From: a virus
IMG/VR virus record: IMGVR_UViG_3300021378_000131
Location: 1-27,497 of that record
DNA: 27,497 nt
Reading direction: 5' to 3' (one strand)
A program made the position numbers and the translations under genes. The notes under the pieces are model-generated. The model saw nothing but the letters and a program-made list of their open reading frames with translations. It was not told the origin of the DNA and searched no databases. This document shows, in pieces, positions 19,024-25,614 of the stretch (within the stretch, counting starts at the first letter, position 1; each line of letters opens with the position of its first letter).

Positions 19024-20229
19024 TTATCTAATTTCTATTCCGAATTGATTGCCTAAAACGTAAGATGCAACGTATCTCAAAGGGTCTATTGTATGGTTAA
19101 AATCGTCTACAAATAATTTACTGCCTTTGTCTGCATAAACATAGTTATTTAATTCTTTTCCAATATTCGTACTATGATCTTCAATTATTAATTTGTAGTC
19201 TAATAATAAACTTATTCCAAGTGATATTGAGCCTTGTCCTTTTATCGCTCCCATTATATTATTGCCTTGGTTATTTAACTCTTGTATAAGTCTTGGCTCG
19301 GCACTATCTCCAATTATCAAATTTTGACCAGCACAATTTTTATTTATTTCTGCTATTTCTCTGGTCGTTAATTTTGGAGCGTATAAATGCTCTTTAACCC
19401 ATATTATTTTTTCCCTTTTATCAATAGCCACTTCAATAAGTGTTGTTGGATCTATACTAAAGCCATAATCTTGACCAAATATAGTTTGCAGTCCTTTTGG
19501 ATTAAACTCTCCATATTCCCAATTTGTGAAAACAACGCCCTCTGCTTTTTCTAACCAAGAGCCATTTATTATATGCTCATATTTAGTTGGGTTTTTTGTT
19601 TTCATTCTTTCAACCTCATCTAAAAAAGACTGGTCTAAATGCTTAATATTATCCAAATAAGTAGTGTGAATATAAGTAACATTATTTTTTTGACCATTCC
19701 AACCAGCTTGGACTCCAGCATCTTCAAAAAATCTTTTGTATATCCAATGTTCTTTGGTGGCTGGATTAAGTATTAGAATAACTCTGTTTTGTGTTCCCTT
19801 TGTTCTTAATGATAAGTTTATTTTGTCAAATAGTTTTTCGTCAACCATTTCTTCTGCTTCATCTAATATCCAAGTAGTAATTCCTTGCAAAGATTTAAGC
19901 GATGCCGTTTGGTCTCCAGAAGATGTCTTTAATCCCTTAAATATAATTTCGCTACCAGACGCTTTATTTTGTATTGTAGTTCTGTTTATATCAAATACCC
20001 TTTGTAGATTTAATAGTTCTATTTTCTCCTTAAATTCTGGAATGATACTAATATGTGCCGAAGATAGTGTTTGCCTCGTAAATAGCACCTTATGGTTTTT
20101 CTCAAGGCTTAATAAAGCAATAAAAGTGTTGACCGAGAATGATTTTGTTGCTCCTCGCCCTCCAGTAACTATAAAAAACCTTGTATCGTTTTTAAATAAA
20201 GGCTTAAATTTGTCATTTAGTTTTATCAA
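19024..20229 (-). CDS. terL: Terminase large subunit (TTG start)
   Basis: The 401-aa packaging motor has an ATPase domain with Walker A GGRGATKS (23-30), Walker B TWILDEAEE (119-127) and coupling motif LILNPAT (152-158). The C-terminal nuclease domain has acidic residues at GQDYGFSID (D254), IIGDSAEPRL (D308) and DDFNHTIDPLRY (D382). It belongs to the PBSX/Terminase_3-like group. It drives DNA into the prohead through the portal and cuts concatemers. No ATG exists between the upstream in-frame stop and Walker A; the first usable start is TTG at 20229, 17 bases inside terS, which implies translational coupling. The length is normal for the family. Confidence 0.95.
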   Translation of the reverse strand: MIKLNDKFKPLFKNDTRFFIVTGGRGATKSFSVNTFIALLSLEKNHKVLFTRQTLSSAHISIIPEFKEKIELLNLQRVFDINRTTIQNKASGSEIIFKGLKTSSGDQTASLKSLQGITTWILDEAEEMVDEKLFDKINLSLRTKGTQNRVILILNPATKEHWIYKRFFEDAGVQAGWNGQKNNVTYIHTTYLDNIKHLDQSFLDEVERMKTKNPTKYEHIINGSWLEKAEGVVFTNWEYGEFNPKGLQTIFGQDYGFSIDPTTLIEVAIDKREKIIWVKEHLYAPKLTTREIAEINKNCAGQNLIIGDSAEPRLIQELNNQGNNIMGAIKGQGSISLGISLLLDYKLIIEDHSTNIGKELNNYVYADKGSKLFVDDFNHTIDPLRYVASYVLGNQFGIEIR

Positions 20230-20581
20230 ATGTTATTAAGTCTTTTATATTAAATCCAGAAACCTCCATTTTAGTATCTTGGTCAACCTCTATTTTTTCA
20301 ATGTAGCCTCTTTTTTTGCCTTTAGTTTTTAGATAAAATATTGTTGCACTTGTATTCCCCTCACTTATCTGTTTATGCAGTTGTGTTTCTGCAAAATCTA
20401 AAGCTACATTTGAAATATCATTTACTTTTTTTGCAAACTCTTTATCTTCTTTCAACCAAGCGTAAAATTGTGTTCTTCCAACATCAGAATTTTTACAAGC
20501 AGTTGTCACAACTCCAAGTGATTTTTCTAAAGCTTTAATAACTGCCTTTTTATGTTGTTCGGTTTTGTTCAACTTTTTCAT
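20213..20581 (-). CDS. terS: Terminase small subunit
   Basis: This 122-aa protein has an N-terminal helix-turn-helix (about 8-50: KKAVIKALEKSLGVVTTACK, then VGRTQFYAWLKED), followed by the oligomerisation region with FAETQLHKQISEGNTSATIFYLKTKGKKRGY, a sequence typical of phage small terminases. It binds the packaging start site on phage DNA and hands it to the large subunit, whose gene overlaps by 17 bases. It starts 6 bases after the ParB-like gene, so the packaging genes share a transcript with the PAPS-reductase-like cassette. Confidence 0.88.
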   Translation of the reverse strand: MKKLNKTEQHKKAVIKALEKSLGVVTTACKNSDVGRTQFYAWLKEDKEFAKKVNDISNVALDFAETQLHKQISEGNTSATIFYLKTKGKKRGYIEKIEVDQDTKMEVSGFNIKDLITFDKTK

Positions 20582-20587
20582 AGTTTT

Positions 20588-21085
20588 TTATTTTGGTTTC
20601 CAAGCCTTGCTAAACTCTGCGTCTTTAAAAACTTGTGATTTTGGTATTCCACTTCTAAATAATAATCTAACTACTTCTTCTTTTTCCATTTGTAGTCTTT
20701 GCATTATTTCTTCTCCACTTAAACCAGCATCTGACATATCTGTTATGATCTTGCTCATTTCTAAAACGCTATGCGTACCTCTGGCTCTATTATGTCTTAT
20801 TGTAGCCATTTGTTGTTGCTGGTCGTCTTTTGGCTCAATCATTACTGTTGGCACTTTGCCTTTTGTAAGTTTAAATATTTCGTCGTGACCAGAAACCGTC
20901 CAACGATGAAATCCGTCTACTATTGTTAAGTCTGGATTTATAACTATTGGTTGCGTCCAGCCGTCCTCTTTTATAGATATTTTTAGTAGTTTTAATTCTG
21001 TTGGTGCTACTTTATTTGGATTATAATTGTTAGGCTTTAATTCTTCTCTATCTCTCCAAGTTATTTTGTCTAATGGTTGTTTCAT
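20588..21085 (-). CDS. ParB-like nuclease-fold protein, IbrB type
   Basis: The 165-aa protein begins MKQPLDKITWRDREELKPNN, includes APTELKLLKISIKEDGWTQP and IVDGFHRW (55-62, the ParB 'G-x-x-R' box), then IRHNRARGTHS (96-106). A helical C-terminus carries LSGEEIMQRLQMEKEEVVRL, HTH-like. This is the short ParB/Srx-fold form that pairs with PAPS-reductase-like proteins (as IbrB does with IbrA in E. coli). ParB-fold proteins bind CTP or nucleotides and DNA; the biochemical role of this branch is not known to me. It starts 38 bases inside the preceding gene, so it is likely coupled with it. It lies last in the cassette, just before terS. Confidence 0.82.
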   Translation of the reverse strand: MKQPLDKITWRDREELKPNNYNPNKVAPTELKLLKISIKEDGWTQPIVINPDLTIVDGFHRWTVSGHDEIFKLTKGKVPTVMIEPKDDQQQQMATIRHNRARGTHSVLEMSKIITDMSDAGLSGEEIMQRLQMEKEEVVRLLFRSGIPKSQVFKDAEFSKAWKPK

Positions 21086-21563
21086 AATCTTTTATTTGTT
21101 TTTTAGAATAATCTATAATGTTTGCACTTTTTCTTTGGTTTTGCATTAACCATACCAACTCTTGCTCTTGCTCTATATTTCTTTTAATAGATAGTAGATG
21201 CTTAACATATAAGTCCCTTGTTTTTAATTTATGTAACAGTATATCCCTATCCTCTTTTTCTGGTGCTGGAGATCTATATGCTTTATTATCATTAATTGGT
21301 GCTTTATTTAATACTTGTATCGCTTTTAAAGGCCTCCCCATTTCCCAGTATTCGAAACCGTCCAATTCAAAATATAAATATTGTTTTGAGTAGAATGATT
21401 TTAGTACTGCATTTTCTCTTGCATAATATATAAATTTCTCAAAATAAGCATCATTTCCAACCCTATCTCGTGTTGTGTAGCTATGTGGATAGGTTTCTGA
21501 ATAACTCTTTGCAAATACCCATTCAACGCTCTCTATAAACGCTCTAAATTCTTCTTCCGTCAT
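21048..21563 (-). CDS. Uncharacterised protein linked to the PAPS-reductase-like gene, 171 aa
   Basis: Two parts can be seen. Residues 1-~95 carry FIESVEWVFAKSYSETYPHS, FEKFIYYARENAVLKSF and YLYFELDGFEYWEMG, a compact alpha/beta pattern rich in Tyr, Phe and Trp that I recall from phage genes beside PAPS-reductase-like genes. Residues ~105-171 are a charged helix or coiled coil (LLHKLKTRDLYVKHLLSIKR). The start overlaps the stop of the PAPS-reductase-like gene by 4 bases (ATGA) and the end overlaps the ParB-like gene by 38 bases. It is thus an integral part of the cassette, perhaps an accessory or substrate-recognition subunit. No function is known. Confidence 0.6.
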   Translation of the reverse strand: MTEEEFRAFIESVEWVFAKSYSETYPHSYTTRDRVGNDAYFEKFIYYARENAVLKSFYSKQYLYFELDGFEYWEMGRPLKAIQVLNKAPINDNKAYRSPAPEKEDRDILLHKLKTRDLYVKHLLSIKRNIEQEQELVWLMQNQRKSANIIDYSKKQIKDYETTIRQNNLER

Positions 21564-22729
21564 TTATATATTTTTTGTGCCTCACTTTCAGTAATTCCAA
21601 GTTTCTTTCTTCTGTTTGTAGCTAACCCATTTAATTGACTGCTTTGTCTACCCTTAAAATCGCCTCGCATTGCTACTCTACAAATAAACTGCCAAGATAA
21701 ACCACTTAATGGATGTGCCTCATCTTCTGGTATTGACTGGCTTGTTCTTGACTTATGTAGATTAATATACATATTTATCTGTTTTGATACGTCATTTTTA
21801 GCTTTTTTATTATAGCTATCCAGAACAACCTTTGTATATTGTTTGTACGTTAAATGCTCTGGTTTGCTTTTAGCGTTACTATATAACTCTGTGTTAGCGT
21901 ACCTCCAAGCACTCGCAACGCCTTGTACTCTGTGTAACATTTTGTGCCACATTTCTGGAAAACATTCTCCATAAACCCACAAACCTCTCAATGGCTCCTC
22001 TCCAAACGGAGGACATACCCTATGTGTTAAAAATCTATTATATAGTTTTGTTTGATTAAAAATGTCATAAGTTTTGTTATAGTCCCAACCAAATTTGTGT
22101 ACTGCTAACCATACGTCTTGACTACTCCAGTCATATACTGGAAACGCTCTATATTGGTTTTGCCCTTTCTCTGCTTTACTATTTAAAAAATGGTCATTTT
22201 TCTTTCTGGCTATTACTTGGTATCTTCTTAAACTTTCTTCTGTTCTTATGCCAGTCAACATTGCAACCTTTCCCTCGCTCCTATCATAAAGATACGGAGA
22301 AAACTCTTGGAATGTCATTCCCTTTTTAAATTTTTTATGTTTAGTTATTGCCTCTTTTGGCATTTCTCTAACCCATTTGTCTTTTGCCTCACTATCCCAA
22401 GTGTACCAAAATGGCTCGTCATTTGAACAAGCGTTTCTGTGTTTAAATTCTAAACAGTACCATTTTAAATCTACTTCTTCAAGATCATAAGTTCTTTTTA
22501 CGTATTCAATTGTTGGTGGATGTATAGCCTCCTCGTCAAAAAACACAACCTCTAATGGTAATTTATTTAGTTTTTTAGCAACTTCAAGTGTTGCGTTTAA
22601 AACGGCAGTACTGTCTTTGCCACCAGAAAAACTTACAACAACTTTATCAAAACTATTATAAAGATATTCTATTCGTTCTAACGCTTTTTCCCAAACATTT
22701 TTTTCAAGATATTCCTTTTTTCTTATCAT
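21560..22729 (-). CDS. PAPS-reductase-family PP-loop protein (IbrA/DUF3440-like)
   Basis: The 389-aa protein has the PP-loop VVSFSGGKDSTAVL (S35-S40), FFDEEA (64-69), TGIRTEES (159-166) and FPVYDWSSQDVW (196-207), the standard elements of the PAPS-reductase/adenine nucleotide alpha-hydrolase fold. The C-terminal part has THRVCPPFGEEPLRGLW (235-251) and PEMWHKMLHRVQG, diagnostic of the IbrA/DUF3440 branch rather than assimilatory CysH. The branch is expected to activate a substrate with ATP by adenylation, perhaps for sulfur transfer; the true substrate is unknown. The CysH C-terminal ECG-C-H motif is absent. It overlaps the cupin gene and the 171-aa gene by 4 bases each. An IbrA-IbrB style partnership with the ParB-like protein at 20588 is likely. 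Confidence 0.85.
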   Translation of the reverse strand: MIRKKEYLEKNVWEKALERIEYLYNSFDKVVVSFSGGKDSTAVLNATLEVAKKLNKLPLEVVFFDEEAIHPPTIEYVKRTYDLEEVDLKWYCLEFKHRNACSNDEPFWYTWDSEAKDKWVREMPKEAITKHKKFKKGMTFQEFSPYLYDRSEGKVAMLTGIRTEESLRRYQVIARKKNDHFLNSKAEKGQNQYRAFPVYDWSSQDVWLAVHKFGWDYNKTYDIFNQTKLYNRFLTHRVCPPFGEEPLRGLWVYGECFPEMWHKMLHRVQGVASAWRYANTELYSNAKSKPEHLTYKQYTKVVLDSYNKKAKNDVSKQINMYINLHKSRTSQSIPEDEAHPLSGLSWQFICRVAMRGDFKGRQSSQLNGLATNRRKKLGITESEAQKIYK

Positions 22730-23508
22730 TTTGTTTGTATTCCGTCTATTGTACTGGCTGGTTTTCCTTTTACTATTGTTCTATTTATCATTGGATGATT
22801 AATGTCGGTCGCTCCAAAATCGCTATCTGGATGAAAAGCAATTACGTCCATATCTTCCAAGTAAGTATAAAAACAATGGTTGCCTATTTCATAATCGTTT
22901 CCGTCTATTCCTTTTCTAAACGTCACTCCGTCCCATTCCTTAATAATAAAAATCATATCTTCCTCAAGATCTAAATTGCCAAAAGGTGTTACGCATTCGC
23001 CAGAGCCTTTTGATACTATCCCTATTCTGTGGCTTGGGTGCGTATGTGGTGTTTGTGAAATATTGCTTGGAAAATGCAAATGATTAAAACAAGGATCTCC
23101 CATTTTAATTGGTGGTATAAGTAAACTATCAGTACAACCGTCAATATATTTAAGTCTTCCCTCTTTTTCTACTCTGCCAACGTGATACATAGCCTTATAG
23201 TTGGTTTCTGGATAAACTCCTTTTGTATGATGTACTTCAATAAGTATCATTTTAAAACAATGATGTAATGTAAATTTGCCATTTAAAGAAAAGTAATTAC
23301 CTTTTTTTAATAAAGTACATTGCTGGTCGTGTGATAGTATAGCCTCTCCAGAATACATATAACCATAGTAGCTACAATTTTCTTTTGGCTCAATTCCGTC
23401 TGCGTCTATTACATTGTAATAACTTATTGGATATTTTTTGTGATTGCTCTCGTCCATTAGCAACCCAACTTTTGTATTGTCAAATACTTTAAATGCTTCG
23501 TTTTCCAT
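22726..23508 (-). CDS. Two-domain cupin protein in the PAPS-reductase-like cassette
   Basis: The 260-aa protein appears to hold two beta-barrel cupin halves. The first (about 15-100) contains YSGEAILSHDQQCTLLKKGN and YFSLNGKFTLHHCF. The second (about 140-230) contains HLHFP (143-147), TPHTHPSHRIG (153-163), GSGECVTPFG and DMDVIAFHPDSDFG. H155 and H157 with H226 could form the metal site of the second cupin; the usual Glu of motif 1 is not where expected. Cupins include dioxygenases, isomerases and sugar-nucleotide enzymes, so the reaction cannot be named. The gene overlaps ParB-like gene 23489 by 20 bases and the PAPS-reductase-like gene by 4 bases, so its product is probably made in step with them. 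I know of no standard annotation for this combination. Confidence 0.68.
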   Translation of the reverse strand: MENEAFKVFDNTKVGLLMDESNHKKYPISYYNVIDADGIEPKENCSYYGYMYSGEAILSHDQQCTLLKKGNYFSLNGKFTLHHCFKMILIEVHHTKGVYPETNYKAMYHVGRVEKEGRLKYIDGCTDSLLIPPIKMGDPCFNHLHFPSNISQTPHTHPSHRIGIVSKGSGECVTPFGNLDLEEDMIFIIKEWDGVTFRKGIDGNDYEIGNHCFYTYLEDMDVIAFHPDSDFGATDINHPMINRTIVKGKPASTIDGIQTK

Positions 23509-24070
23509 AATCTACTAATACCATTAAGGCATCTTCTTGTTTTTCTAAATTATTCTTTTCTTTAATTTGATTTAAAACTCTTATTAGTTCTAATTTGTTT
23601 TGATGTACCATTATCATTTCAAATTGACTATATCCGTCGTCCATTATACTTGCTTTTGGCTCTTGTTCTTCTGAAGTATCTTCCAATTCAAACATATCAT
23701 CTGCATTCCAAACATCTAATCCCCAATCTTGTATTTGCGTATTGTTCCAGTTGTCAGCTAAATTATCCCAATCCCATTCTCCAAATCCTATATTATCTTT
23801 AATTATAAACTCACGTTTTTGTTTTTCTGTAAGTCCTTTAGCTATTGTAATTGGCACTTCTTGAAGTCCAGCCTCTATACAAGCCTTATGCCTCATATTA
23901 CCTCCTAAAATAATCATATCTTCATCTACAACTATTGGTCGTAATTCAAGCATTTCTGGAAACTCATTAATTGACTTAACAAGTTTTTTAAATTTAGTGT
24001 CTTTTATCCAGCGAGGATTTGACTCATTACTTTTAATGTCGTGAATATTAACCTTTGTTTGTTTTTTCAT
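23489..24070 (-). CDS. ParB-like nuclease-fold protein (methylase-associated type)
   Basis: The 193-aa protein starts with the classic phage ParB N-domain: NPRWIKDTKFKKLVKSINEF, RPIVVDEDMIILGGNMRHKA (GGNMR at 56-60) and VPITIAKGLTEKQKREFIIK. Then comes DNIGFGEWDWDNLADNW and IQDWGLDVW, the segment that in many phages links a ParB domain to a DNA methyltransferase. Here no methyltransferase domain follows, only about 70 further residues with FEMIMVHQNKLELIRVLNQI. The gene overlaps the cupin gene by 20 bases. It is a second, divergent ParB-like protein in the same cassette. DNA or nucleotide binding is inferred from the family. Confidence 0.8.
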   Translation of the reverse strand: MKKQTKVNIHDIKSNESNPRWIKDTKFKKLVKSINEFPEMLELRPIVVDEDMIILGGNMRHKACIEAGLQEVPITIAKGLTEKQKREFIIKDNIGFGEWDWDNLADNWNNTQIQDWGLDVWNADDMFELEDTSEEQEPKASIMDDGYSQFEMIMVHQNKLELIRVLNQIKEKNNLEKQEDALMVLVDYGKRSI

Positions 24071-24182
24071 TTTTGCATTGTTTTAATTCTTCGTCCATTT
24101 CTGTAATCTTAACATATAGTTTTGATACTACGGTTTCAAGTACGGATAACCTTTGTTTAGTTGTATAATTTTTAGGCTTCAT
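24048..24182 (-). CDS. 44-aa coiled-coil-like small protein
   Basis: An ATG at 24182 opens a frame ending at 24048. It overlaps the Cys-rich gene by 11 bases and the ParB-like gene by 23 bases, a tight fit that supports it. The translation has TTKQRLSVLETVVSKLYVKI with Leu/Val at heptad spacing, so a short helix or coiled coil is likely. Function unknown. Confidence 0.6.
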   Translation of the reverse strand: MKPKNYTTKQRLSVLETVVSKLYVKITEMDEELKQCKNEKTNKG

Positions 24183-24615
24183 AACTATGATAAACTTTAT
24201 CTAATTCGTTACTCATCTTTAAAAGCAGTTTTCCACTTCCATTGCAGTTTTTACATAAGTCTATTTTTCTGTATTGCGTAGCAAATATTTGAGAATAAGA
24301 TTCAATTAGTAAATCAATTTCATTGTCATTCCATAGCTTTAATGTTCTATTTTTAATATATTTTGTATATCTTTTATATAGATCTTCAGTAAAACATCTT
24401 ACTGGTTTGCGTCTTATTGGAAAAATTTTATTTAGTTTCTGCTTACGCTCCTCACAACCACAATCGTCATTGTCTTTAAATATAGCTTTTTTAATAACTT
24501 TAGTCAATGGTTTAATTGGTTTACTTTCCAATACATTTTCTACAACATCGCCAAGTCCAGCTGGTGTAACTTTTACCTTTGTTGTCTTTTTCTTCCTTAC
24601 TTGTTTTTTTGCCAT
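24172..24615 (-). CDS. Cys-rich small phage protein (possible zinc binder)
   Basis: The 147-aa protein has a very basic start (MAKKQVRKKKTTKVKV), then GLGDVVENVLES, DDCGCEERKQKLNKIFP (C52, C54), a single C74 and LCKNCNGSGK (C121, C124). The CxC...CxxC spacing could bind a metal. The 'D-C-G-C-x-x-R-x-x-x-L-N-x-[I/L]-F' string is widespread in small proteins of Bacteroidota phages near terminase and sigma-like genes. It overlaps the sigma-like gene by 19 bases. A nucleic-acid-binding or regulatory role is plausible from the basic N-terminus but unproven. Confidence 0.65.
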   Translation of the reverse strand: MAKKQVRKKKTTKVKVTPAGLGDVVENVLESKPIKPLTKVIKKAIFKDNDDCGCEERKQKLNKIFPIRRKPVRCFTEDLYKRYTKYIKNRTLKLWNDNEIDLLIESYSQIFATQYRKIDLCKNCNGSGKLLLKMSNELDKVYHSYEA

Positions 24616-25079
24616 TTTAAATTACTGTTTTGATATTTATAATAATCTTCGTCTAATATTTCTTGAATTCCTAATTTTGTTTCTCTAAATACAAAGCCAT
24701 AATTTATATCGTACATTTCGGCTATTTCTCTATTACTTCGGTCGTAACTTTCTTTAATGAATTCCAGCCTATGCCATTTTATACTTTCTGCCTTGTCTAA
24801 TATATCTTGTTCTGCGTCTGTTGGCTCAAATTTCTTTGTTGTATCTTCTATATAATAAAAAGCGTCTAAACTAACCGGCTCTTTTTTTGCCTTGTTCATT
24901 TTAGCTCTAAATAAGTTTTTAAGTGTTCTAAATATATATCCAGCCGTTACGTTTTGTTTGTCCATTACCAGCAAATACATTTCTTGGGTAATTTCGTCAG
25001 CCATTTCTTTATCCCTATTACAAACGTAATAAGCCATTTTTCTCCATTGGATATCGTTTTTTGCTAACTCTATAAGCAT
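24597..25079 (-). CDS. Sigma-70-like (ECF-type) regulator
   Basis: With the start at ATG 25079 (MLIELAKND) the protein is 160 aa. A longer reading to 25169 would run through a hairpin in the leader and add a Phe/Lys-rich stretch, so it is rejected. Region-2-like sequence is KEMADEITQEMYLLVMD (about 24-40), followed by TAGYIFRTLKNLFRAK. A region-4-like HTH lies near the end (SNREIAEMYDINYGFVFRET). Small sigma-like proteins of this kind in phages are thought to direct late transcription, which suits its position just ahead of the terminase and virion genes. The region matches are weak, so a DNA-binding HTH regulator rather than a true sigma factor is possible. Confidence 0.68.
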   Translation of the reverse strand: MLIELAKNDIQWRKMAYYVCNRDKEMADEITQEMYLLVMDKQNVTAGYIFRTLKNLFRAKMNKAKKEPVSLDAFYYIEDTTKKFEPTDAEQDILDKAESIKWHRLEFIKESYDRSNREIAEMYDINYGFVFRETKLGIQEILDEDYYKYQNSNLKWQKNK

Positions 25080-25124
25080 TTTATGTGGCTTGTCCAAATT
25101 TAAGTAAAAGTTATTAACAAAACA

Positions 25125-25157
25125 AAAACGCCTAAACTTTAGAGGTTTAAGCGTCTT
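25125..25157 (-). terminator. Hairpin with U-rich tail in the sigma-like gene's leader
   Basis: On the minus strand 25157-25145 pairs with 25137-25125 over 13 bp including two G-U pairs, with a 7-base loop, followed by TTTTGTTTTG. It is 45 bases before the ATG at 25079 and about 100 bases after the M15 peptidase stop. It could end the upstream operon. A promoter match sits upstream of the hairpin, so it could also act as an attenuator in the leader. Confidence 0.72.
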
Positions 25158-25171
25158 AAAACAAAACAAAA

Positions 25172-25257: not shown

Positions 25258-25614
25258 TTAATAAACCCAAATAACGTTTTCGTGTTTTTCGCAGTCAACG
25301 TCACAATGTATAAAAGTTTTAGCTATTCCAATGCGATTTATTCCAGCCTCTAATAAGGCATTAACTATTATAAATCTGTCTGTGCTATAACTACAAGCAA
25401 TGTCAACGGCTAATCCTTTCAAATGGCTCGATTGGGAAGCCCCTCCAACCTTTTTATTGTGTCTTGGTGTTCTGTAACCAGAATTAATTTTAAAAGGCAC
25501 TCCAGCTATGTGACGTGCCTTATTAAGTTTATCTAATAATTCTTTTTGCATTTTACTTCCAGAGCCTTTTAAATCTGGACTGGCAAATTCGCTTTCTTTA
25601 AAGTATTTTTTCAT
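25258..25614 (-). CDS. M15-family peptidase, probable endolysin
   Basis: The 118-aa protein carries SGYRTPRHN (45-53), SSHLKGLAVDIAC (62-74, with H64 and D71) and FIHCDVD (101-107, with H103), the zinc and catalytic residues of Peptidase_M15_3/D-Ala-D-Ala carboxypeptidase-like enzymes. It would cut peptidoglycan stem peptides. It has no signal peptide or membrane segment, so release by a holin is expected; holin-like genes lie far away at 537-1221. Its start overlaps the upstream nuclease stop (ATGA). It closes the first operon ahead of the hairpin at 25125. Confidence 0.88.
   Translation of the reverse strand: MKKYFKESEFASPDLKGSGSKMQKELLDKLNKARHIAGVPFKINSGYRTPRHNKKVGGASQSSHLKGLAVDIACSYSTDRFIIVNALLEAGINRIGIAKTFIHCDVDCEKHENVIWVY

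Follow-up and report, generated by a model that had tools for sequence, protein, structure and literature searches.

The IbrA-IbrB pair of E. coli and its prophages (YbdN-YbdM type, DUF3440 plus ParB) has been described only as a transcription co-activator, and no biochemistry of this pair was found in the literature. CmoY, a PP-loop amide ligase, attaches glycine to 5-carboxymethylcytosine in phage DNA; many of the contigs also carry a ParBc gene, and some of the ligases possess a glutamine amidase domain (PMC12783734). ParB-like proteins of the Dpd and Dnd systems, DpdB and DndB, offer a precedent for ParB-like nucleoside triphosphatases (NTPases) in DNA modification (PMC12839542, PMC10853773). 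Here, we analyzed the virus contig IMGVR_UViG_3300021378_000131 (27.5 kb, the whole of which is called the window), in which homologs of IbrA and IbrB are encoded together with a cupin and two further proteins in a five-gene cassette next to the terminase genes. Sequence comparisons suggest, with a probability of roughly 0.75, that this cassette is a late, horizontally mobile phage module for DNA hypermodification.

The terminase slot and its interchangeable modules

The genes of the cassette and its borders are as follows.

23489..24070, minus strand: ParB1, a ParB-N domain protein of 193 amino acids (PF02195, 29.0 bits; cut-off, 26.3)
22726..23508, minus strand: bicupin of 260 amino acids, a probable metal enzyme (AlphaFold2 fold, invariant site residues)
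21560..22729, minus strand: IbrA, a PP-loop ATP-pyrophosphatase of 389 amino acids, presumed to be the ATP-dependent core enzyme (PF01507, PF11922)
21048..21563, minus strand: U171, an optional accessory protein of 171 amino acids without a family match
20588..21085, minus strand: ParB2, an IbrB-type ParB of 165 amino acids (phrog_2159)
20213..20581, minus strand: terS, terminase small subunit, a conserved neighbor outside the cassette that bounds the slot (phrog_4044, E 3e-7)
19024..20229, minus strand: terL, terminase large subunit, the anchor of the slot comparison (TIGR01547, 120 bits, over the cut-off)
24172..25169, minus strand: u147 and sigma-like regulator genes, the other boundary of the slot, outside the cassette

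All five open reading frames are encoded on the minus strand and overlap by 20, 4, 4 and 38 bases; terS, which itself overlaps terL, begins 6 bases past ParB2. The original prediction had taken these genes as one coupled unit; their coordinates and overlaps were confirmed, and the linkage recurs in IMG/VR loci. Relatives of this arrangement (ParB1-X-terS-terL, hereafter the slot) were gathered with two TerL alignments, corresponding to two terminase lineages. Among the 67 slot contigs of the first lineage, 34 carried a TET-associated glycosyltransferase (TAGT) with or without Tet_JBP, and IbrA modules occupied 12 (5 with a cupin and 7 of a second type). The other slots held Mom (6), ParB-methyltransferase fusions (4), ABC plus GNAT genes (3), a 7-deazaguanine-type set of GTP cyclohydrolase/PTPS/QueE-like genes (1) and other contents (7). 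Slot representatives matched the Pfam models TAGT (up to 130.5 bits), Tet_JBP (42.9 and 49.7 bits), Mom (150.5 and 107.8 bits), N6_N4_Mtase (33.4 bits) and GTP_cyclohydroI (208 bits). In the window's own lineage, ParB1 was found in the slot of 13 of 50 contigs, and all 13 bore a modification module (12 when the IbrA one is left out): eight ParB fusions with a DPPY or DPPF motif, and TET, Mom, TAGT, ABC plus GNAT and IbrA once each. No modification module was present in the 37 contigs lacking ParB1 (Fisher p 2.8e-12, with independence overstated by shared descent). ParB1 thus opens 13/13 modification slots in this lineage and 61/67 slots in the first.

The closest relative, L392, is 81-98% identical to the window in the flanking genes on both sides (u147, 92%, and the sigma-like regulator, 88%, lie beyond the replaced segment) and 63% identical in ParB1. 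Between its ParB1 and terS, L392 encodes a Tet_JBP dioxygenase (103.1 bits), an alpha-glutamyl/putrescinyl-thymine pyrophosphorylase (ADDT; 36.3 bits, cut-off 26.2) along with two more genes; a search of L392 for HMUDK_hel gave no match. TET and ADDT are enzymes of phage base hypermodification pathways, and in L392 their module stands where the window has the cupin, IbrA, U171 and ParB2. The difference between the two contigs therefore looks like an allelic swap between two DNA-modification modules. Since the position of the cassette matches that of known modification modules in two terminase lineages, the earlier suggestion that it could modify phage DNA is now the best-supported reading, with DNA as the presumed substrate. 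A similar contrast was observed upstream of terL in L441 and L442, which have flanking genes of similar sizes and different slot contents, a ParB-methyltransferase fusion (493 amino acids) in the former and ParB1 plus Mom in the latter. Alignment A6 contains five slot proteins with a match to phrog_6059, annotated 'queuine tRNA-ribosyltransferase', and five with a match to Pfam Tet_JBP; should the two sets coincide, the phrog_6059 label is misleading.

Linkage within the cassette was followed in IMG/VR scans seeded with the cupin, U171 and IbrA, which covered up to 80 loci per scan and favored abundant environmental phages; the counts given here refer to IbrA-seeded, non-identical loci with enough flank. 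Dozens of uncultured phages share the gene order ParB1-cupin-(second PP-loop protein)-IbrA-(U171)-ParB2-terS-terL. ParB2 adjoins IbrA in 123/123 loci, ParB1 is near IbrA in 72/80, and the cupin accompanies IbrA in 52/67. The core of ParB1, cupin, IbrA and ParB2 is more than a chance neighborhood. A rarity of the cupin beside IbrA elsewhere had been named as grounds for rejecting the cassette; in the closest IbrA clade, the cupin was found in 33 of 33 loci. The 171-residue protein, proposed to be an integral part, proved optional in the cupin type, with U171 in 18 of 123 IbrA loci. Comparison of the window with L002 gave ratios of nonsynonymous to synonymous substitution rates (dN/dS) of 0.06 for the cupin, 0.09 for ParB2 and 0.19 for ParB1, with saturated dS for IbrA. 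The cassette appears to be mobile as a unit because the TerL proteins of these two contigs are only 30% identical while the cassette proteins are 70-88% identical (cupin, 88%; ParB2, 86%; IbrA, 83%; ParB1, 70%). No cupin of this kind was detected in cultured phages by tblastn at E<=1, so the cupin-IbrA link rests on IMG/VR and genome contigs. DUF3440 genes were almost absent from 198 searched genomes of a single phylum. In one Crocinitomicaceae genome (G001:C13:119450-128476; L309, L312), a DUF3440 gene in a phage-type cassette is separated by about 8 kb from a second DUF3440 gene, which is of the full-length type (268.7 bits).

Properties of the cassette proteins

IbrA matched PAPS_reduct (PF01507, 53.9 bits) and DUF3440 (PF11922, 44.2 bits), both over the cut-off, and phrog_2302 with 290 bits. 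With the adjacent phrog_2159 ParB, these matches bear out the likeness to E. coli IbrA/IbrB that had been noticed for the PP-loop/ParB pair. The AlphaFold2 model of IbrA (predicted local distance difference test [pLDDT], 88.6) resembled most closely the PAPS domain of FAD synthase (Z 15.7), APS reductase and CysD, and a sequence search against the PDB gave no true match. Across 103 non-redundant IbrA sequences, SGGKDS, D65, E67, G160, R162, E165, R169, P197, D200, D205 and W207 were invariant or nearly so. The cysteines C92, C101, C239 and C256 are kept in the close clade, vary independently across the wider alignment and are missing from several relatives. Because the PP-loop residues are invariant and the cysteines variable, ATP-pyrophosphate chemistry appears to be conserved and cysteine-based sulfur transfer does not. 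The hint of sulfur chemistry in the original prediction lost ground accordingly, as no cysteine is family-wide and IbrA falls far short of the cut-offs of the curated CysH and DndC models. Cysteine-dependent sulfur chemistry as a family feature and a three-cysteine Fe-S site of the TtuA/NcsA kind were both dropped owing to the independent variation of these four residues. ATP-dependent adenylation or ligation would fit better. IbrA may activate either a base carbonyl, in the manner of lysidine synthetase or GMP synthetase, or a small acid.

By sequence, the cupin gave a weak Cupin_2 match (16.7 bits, below the cut-off), and its AlphaFold2 model is a confident two-domain cupin (pLDDT 94.5). The nearest folds were DUF861/(S)-ureidoglycine aminohydrolase (Z 17.6-19.4) and BacB (Z 16.8-17.0), with AerE also close; Z ranged from 15.5 to 19.4 over these closest solved bicupin folds. 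Despite the (S)-ureidoglycine aminohydrolase-type fold, no match was found among NCBIfam models or PDB sequences. H155, R161, H211, H226, H238 and C125 are present in all 131 non-redundant cupins, cellular ones included, and H157 in 130; H155, H157 and H211 are putative metal ligands. Since the metal-site and C-terminal residues are invariant, the cupin is probably a metal enzyme, and the alternative proposal of a sensor has become unlikely. An AraC-like sensor identity was rejected, with a match of only 15.8 bits and invariant site residues.

In cellular genomes, the cupin lies beside IbrA in only 4/80 loci. An asparagine (Asn)-synthetase-type PP-loop gene occurs on the same strand within three genes of the cupin in 27 of the 76 other cellular loci, and such genes make up 29/197 cupin neighbors versus 1/290 control open reading frames. 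The bicupin family (L090-L169) is distributed over Bacteroidota, Cyanobacteria, Planctomycetes and other groups, often beside Asn-synthetase-like genes and sometimes beside genes like those for nonribosomal peptide synthetases (NRPS); no characterized member was found in this survey. A NeuB-type neighborhood in Maricaulis was not used, being on the opposite strand and restricted to one genus. Other cupins also adjoin IbrA: single-domain Cupin_2 proteins do so in L257, L267 and L270; gp104 of Mycobacterium phage Gaia, encoded directly after IbrA, combines an ectoine-synthase-type cupin (EctC) with an IbrB-type ParB in one fusion protein; and in Pseudoalteromonas phage XCL1123, the ectoine-synthase-type cupin and the IbrB-type ParB are separate genes beside IbrA. 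As bicupin, Cupin_2 and EctC proteins are each found beside such genes, cupins seem to have been recruited repeatedly to PP-loop/ParB systems, where they presumably make or prepare a small molecule.

The best phage profile for ParB1 was phrog_498, annotated 'DNA methyltransferase', with the match in the N-terminal ParB part (E 1.4e-26). Judged by sequence, ParB1 and the ParB portion of phage ParB-methyltransferase fusions are homologs. ParB2 matched phrog_2159 (220 bits, E 9e-65) and contains the NTP-site motifs DGFHRW and RHNRARGTH as well as a ParB-like helix-turn-helix (HTH) region; its residues 13-143 align to the Spo0J/ParB structures 1vz0 and 4umk. A chromosome or plasmid partition ParB was rejected for both proteins (TIGR00180, 21.7 bits for ParB2 and 23.0 bits for ParB1; cut-off, 58.45).

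U171 had no family match in profile searches. It corresponds to the N-terminal part of gp155 of Microbacterium phage Rasputia (pairwise E 4e-9), which adjoins the Rasputia IbrA homolog and is also near genes annotated as glycosyltransferases, an acetyltransferase and a methyltransferase. A short form of 89-93 amino acids was present in 8/8 second-type (type-B) IbrA slots seen. In L346, ParB1 is followed upstream of terL by the short U171 alone, without IbrA, possibly as a remnant or with an IbrA-independent function. Slots of relatives may in addition encode a class-II glutamine amidotransferase, an SDR, an aldehyde dehydrogenase or a second PP-loop protein. Those of the second IbrA type contain a GNAT protein, a methyltransferase, an S-adenosylmethionine (AdoMet) decarboxylase (76.9 bits) or a glycosyltransferase-like protein, which in L326 is fused to IbrA. 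This association of IbrA relatives with glycosyltransferase-like, GNAT, methyltransferase and AdoMet-decarboxylase genes, by adjacency or fusion, counts for DNA modification, and the decarboxylases suggest aminopropyl or polyamine-type chemistry. A constant core with changing decorators is the pattern expected from an arms race over DNA modifications. The features of relatives that bear on these points are located as follows.

L305:4808-5707 and L307:4811-5741: cupin-ParB features of Gaia and XCL1123
L326:2217-2585 and L334:3376-3744: phage S-adenosylmethionine decarboxylases beside IbrA
L258:4581-6026, L262:4590-6026 and L266:919-2343: sodium:solute symporters
L234:5151-6008: TctC solute receptor

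Outside the cassette, the sigma-like regulator scored only 14.1 bits against the sigma-70 family model, and an M15 peptidase, a likely endolysin, is encoded just upstream of it (window 25258-25614; Peptidase_M15_3, 69.7 bits). The structural part of the window was sampled only. There, the protein at 9547-10713 matches phrog_1530, annotated 'DNA methyltransferase', in the C-terminal part of the profile alone, and protease profiles match it too; the methyltransferase label is probably wrong.

Proposed mechanism and competing explanations

We infer the following scheme, in which the DNA substrate, the late timing, the bond formed, the roles of the ParB proteins and the cupin, and the protective benefit are all conjectural. 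ParB1 and ParB2, both NTP-binding and the latter with its ParB-type HTH region, would recruit the enzymes to phage DNA ahead of packaging or while it proceeds, and the bicupin would prepare or reshape a small metabolite. IbrA would spend ATP, with release of pyrophosphate, to adenylate this metabolite or a base carbonyl, and would form a new bond to a DNA base, most likely C-N. U171 and the extra genes of relatives (second PP-loop protein, glutamine amidotransferase, SDR, glycosyltransferase, GNAT, methyltransferase and AdoMet decarboxylase) might then vary or elaborate the added group, and the product would shield virion DNA against host nucleases.

Several points weigh against this scheme. 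Position is an indirect kind of evidence, the slot clusters were typed by Pfam and PHROGs tests of representatives, and the slot contigs are incomplete and share ancestry. Some IbrA-ParB pairs are located away from the terminase genes. In a few slots of uncultured phages, the space between ParB1 and IbrA is taken not by the cupin but by genes for sodium:solute symporters or a TctC receptor, perhaps to take up the molecule that is attached. The IbrA/IbrB pair of phage PhiR5_2 is annotated as 'co-activator of prophage gene expression', with no known DNA mark. That annotation, the HTH-like region of ParB2 and the position of the cassette just after regulator-like genes speak for transcriptional reprogramming, with IbrA and ParB2 as a co-activator of prophage or host genes and the cupin as a ligand sensor. 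We consider this unlikely, given a slot common to DNA-modifying enzymes, the invariance of the catalytic residues of IbrA and of the enzyme-like site of the cupin, and accessory genes for enzymes and transporters and not for regulators; an effect on transcription could also stem from DNA modification. The PAPS-reductase-like fold and annotation of IbrA, along with cupins, aldehyde dehydrogenase, SDR, symporters and TctC genes in the slots of relatives, could instead indicate auxiliary metabolism, namely a cysH-like cassette for sulfur or organic-acid utilization. This is less probable still: the CysH models score far under their cut-offs (NF002537, 22.3 versus 154 bits; TIGR00434, 17.2 versus 165.1 bits), IbrA has no conserved cysteine, and ParB2 is a constant neighbor of IbrA in a cassette that TET, Mom and methyltransferase modules replace.

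Chemistry at the level of nucleotides or signals, in which the ParB proteins would act as NTP-using enzymes and deoxynucleoside triphosphates, a second messenger or a host defense molecule would be modified, draws on NTPase activity in some ParB/Srx members (PMC12839542) and on the NRPS-like and Asn-synthetase gene neighborhoods of cellular bicupins. We regard it as improbable, as the cassette adjoins packaging genes. The slot partners TET, Mom, TAGT and methyltransferases, moreover, act on polymeric DNA, which counts against it as well. Lowest of all in our estimation is DNA phosphorothioation by a DndC-like IbrA with a DndB-like partner of the ParB superfamily, in which DndB was once classed (PMC10853773). 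Weak DndC matches were seen (TIGR03183, 34.8 bits; PADLOC DndC, E 1.4e-12), but the former lies far from its cut-off of 290.4 bits, none of the five genes gave a PADLOC match to DndD/DndE or SspC/SspB, and the cysteines of IbrA are variable.

Beyond DNA hypermodification by this cassette, we see even odds that IbrA and an IbrB-type ParB are the prototype of a widespread class of DNA hypermodification systems not described before. In this class, a PAPS-reductase-type PP-loop ATPase would make a new bond, probably C-N, on a DNA base, and interchangeable modules such as cupins, an amidotransferase, AdoMet decarboxylase and glycosyltransferases would yield a family of new bases. Databases currently label phage IbrA-like proteins as PAPS reductases and place them among auxiliary metabolic or moron genes (phrog_2302, phrog_424). 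If the proposal is true, many viral 'cysH' genes are DNA-modification genes; moving the IbrA branch to DNA modification on the slot evidence would correct one part of viral ecology and explain the long-puzzling IbrA/IbrB pair. The proposal predicts at least one new DNA base, with an ATP-dependent attachment probably new to DNA. Cultured phages bearing IbrA include Gaia (M. smegmatis mc2 155), XCL1123, Rasputia/Hendrix and D4276, with Microbacterium and streptococcal phages represented.

Comparison with described systems

No described system with this make-up was found in our literature search, in line with the original prediction; neither was a description of a system linking IbrA or a ParB-PAPS reductase pair to DNA modification, although an earlier mention in Iyer 2013 is possible. 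The IbrA-IbrB type shares homologs of IbrA and ParB2 in the same order, and IbrA of phage PhiR5_2 is 32% identical to that of the window. Unlike the window, the PhiR5_2 locus has no ParB1, cupin or U171 neighbor. The DpdB and DndB systems rely on the TGT-like DpdA or on DndCDE, none of which was found in the window's cassette. Mom, the DNA adenine modification enzyme of the phage Mu type, occupies the same slot in the relatives L330, L358 and L442. It is a single GNAT-like enzyme without sequence kinship to the cassette, and the likeness extends, by analogy, to a late, post-replicative logic. (S)-Ureidoglycine aminohydrolase, BacB and AerE resemble the cupin in fold without a sequence match.

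The TET/JBP modules with TAGT or ADDT share the identical ParB1-X-terS slot, L392 included, whereas their TET, TAGT and ADDT genes are absent from the window's cassette, which has different enzymes. CmoX/CmoY resembles the cassette in using a PP-loop ATP enzyme on phage DNA and in its ParBc genes (PMC12783734). However, CmoY is of the Asn-synthetase type and IbrA of the PAPS-reductase type, and none of the five proteins gave a Pfam match to Asn_synthase or a DNA methylase, as the CmoX/CmoY pathway would have. Because IbrA belongs to another PP-loop branch and the cassette lacks a CmoX-like gene, the base would be attacked or activated differently from the CmoY route. Relative to the literature searched, a DNA-modification role for this core enzyme pair would be new, and its chemistry possibly new as well.

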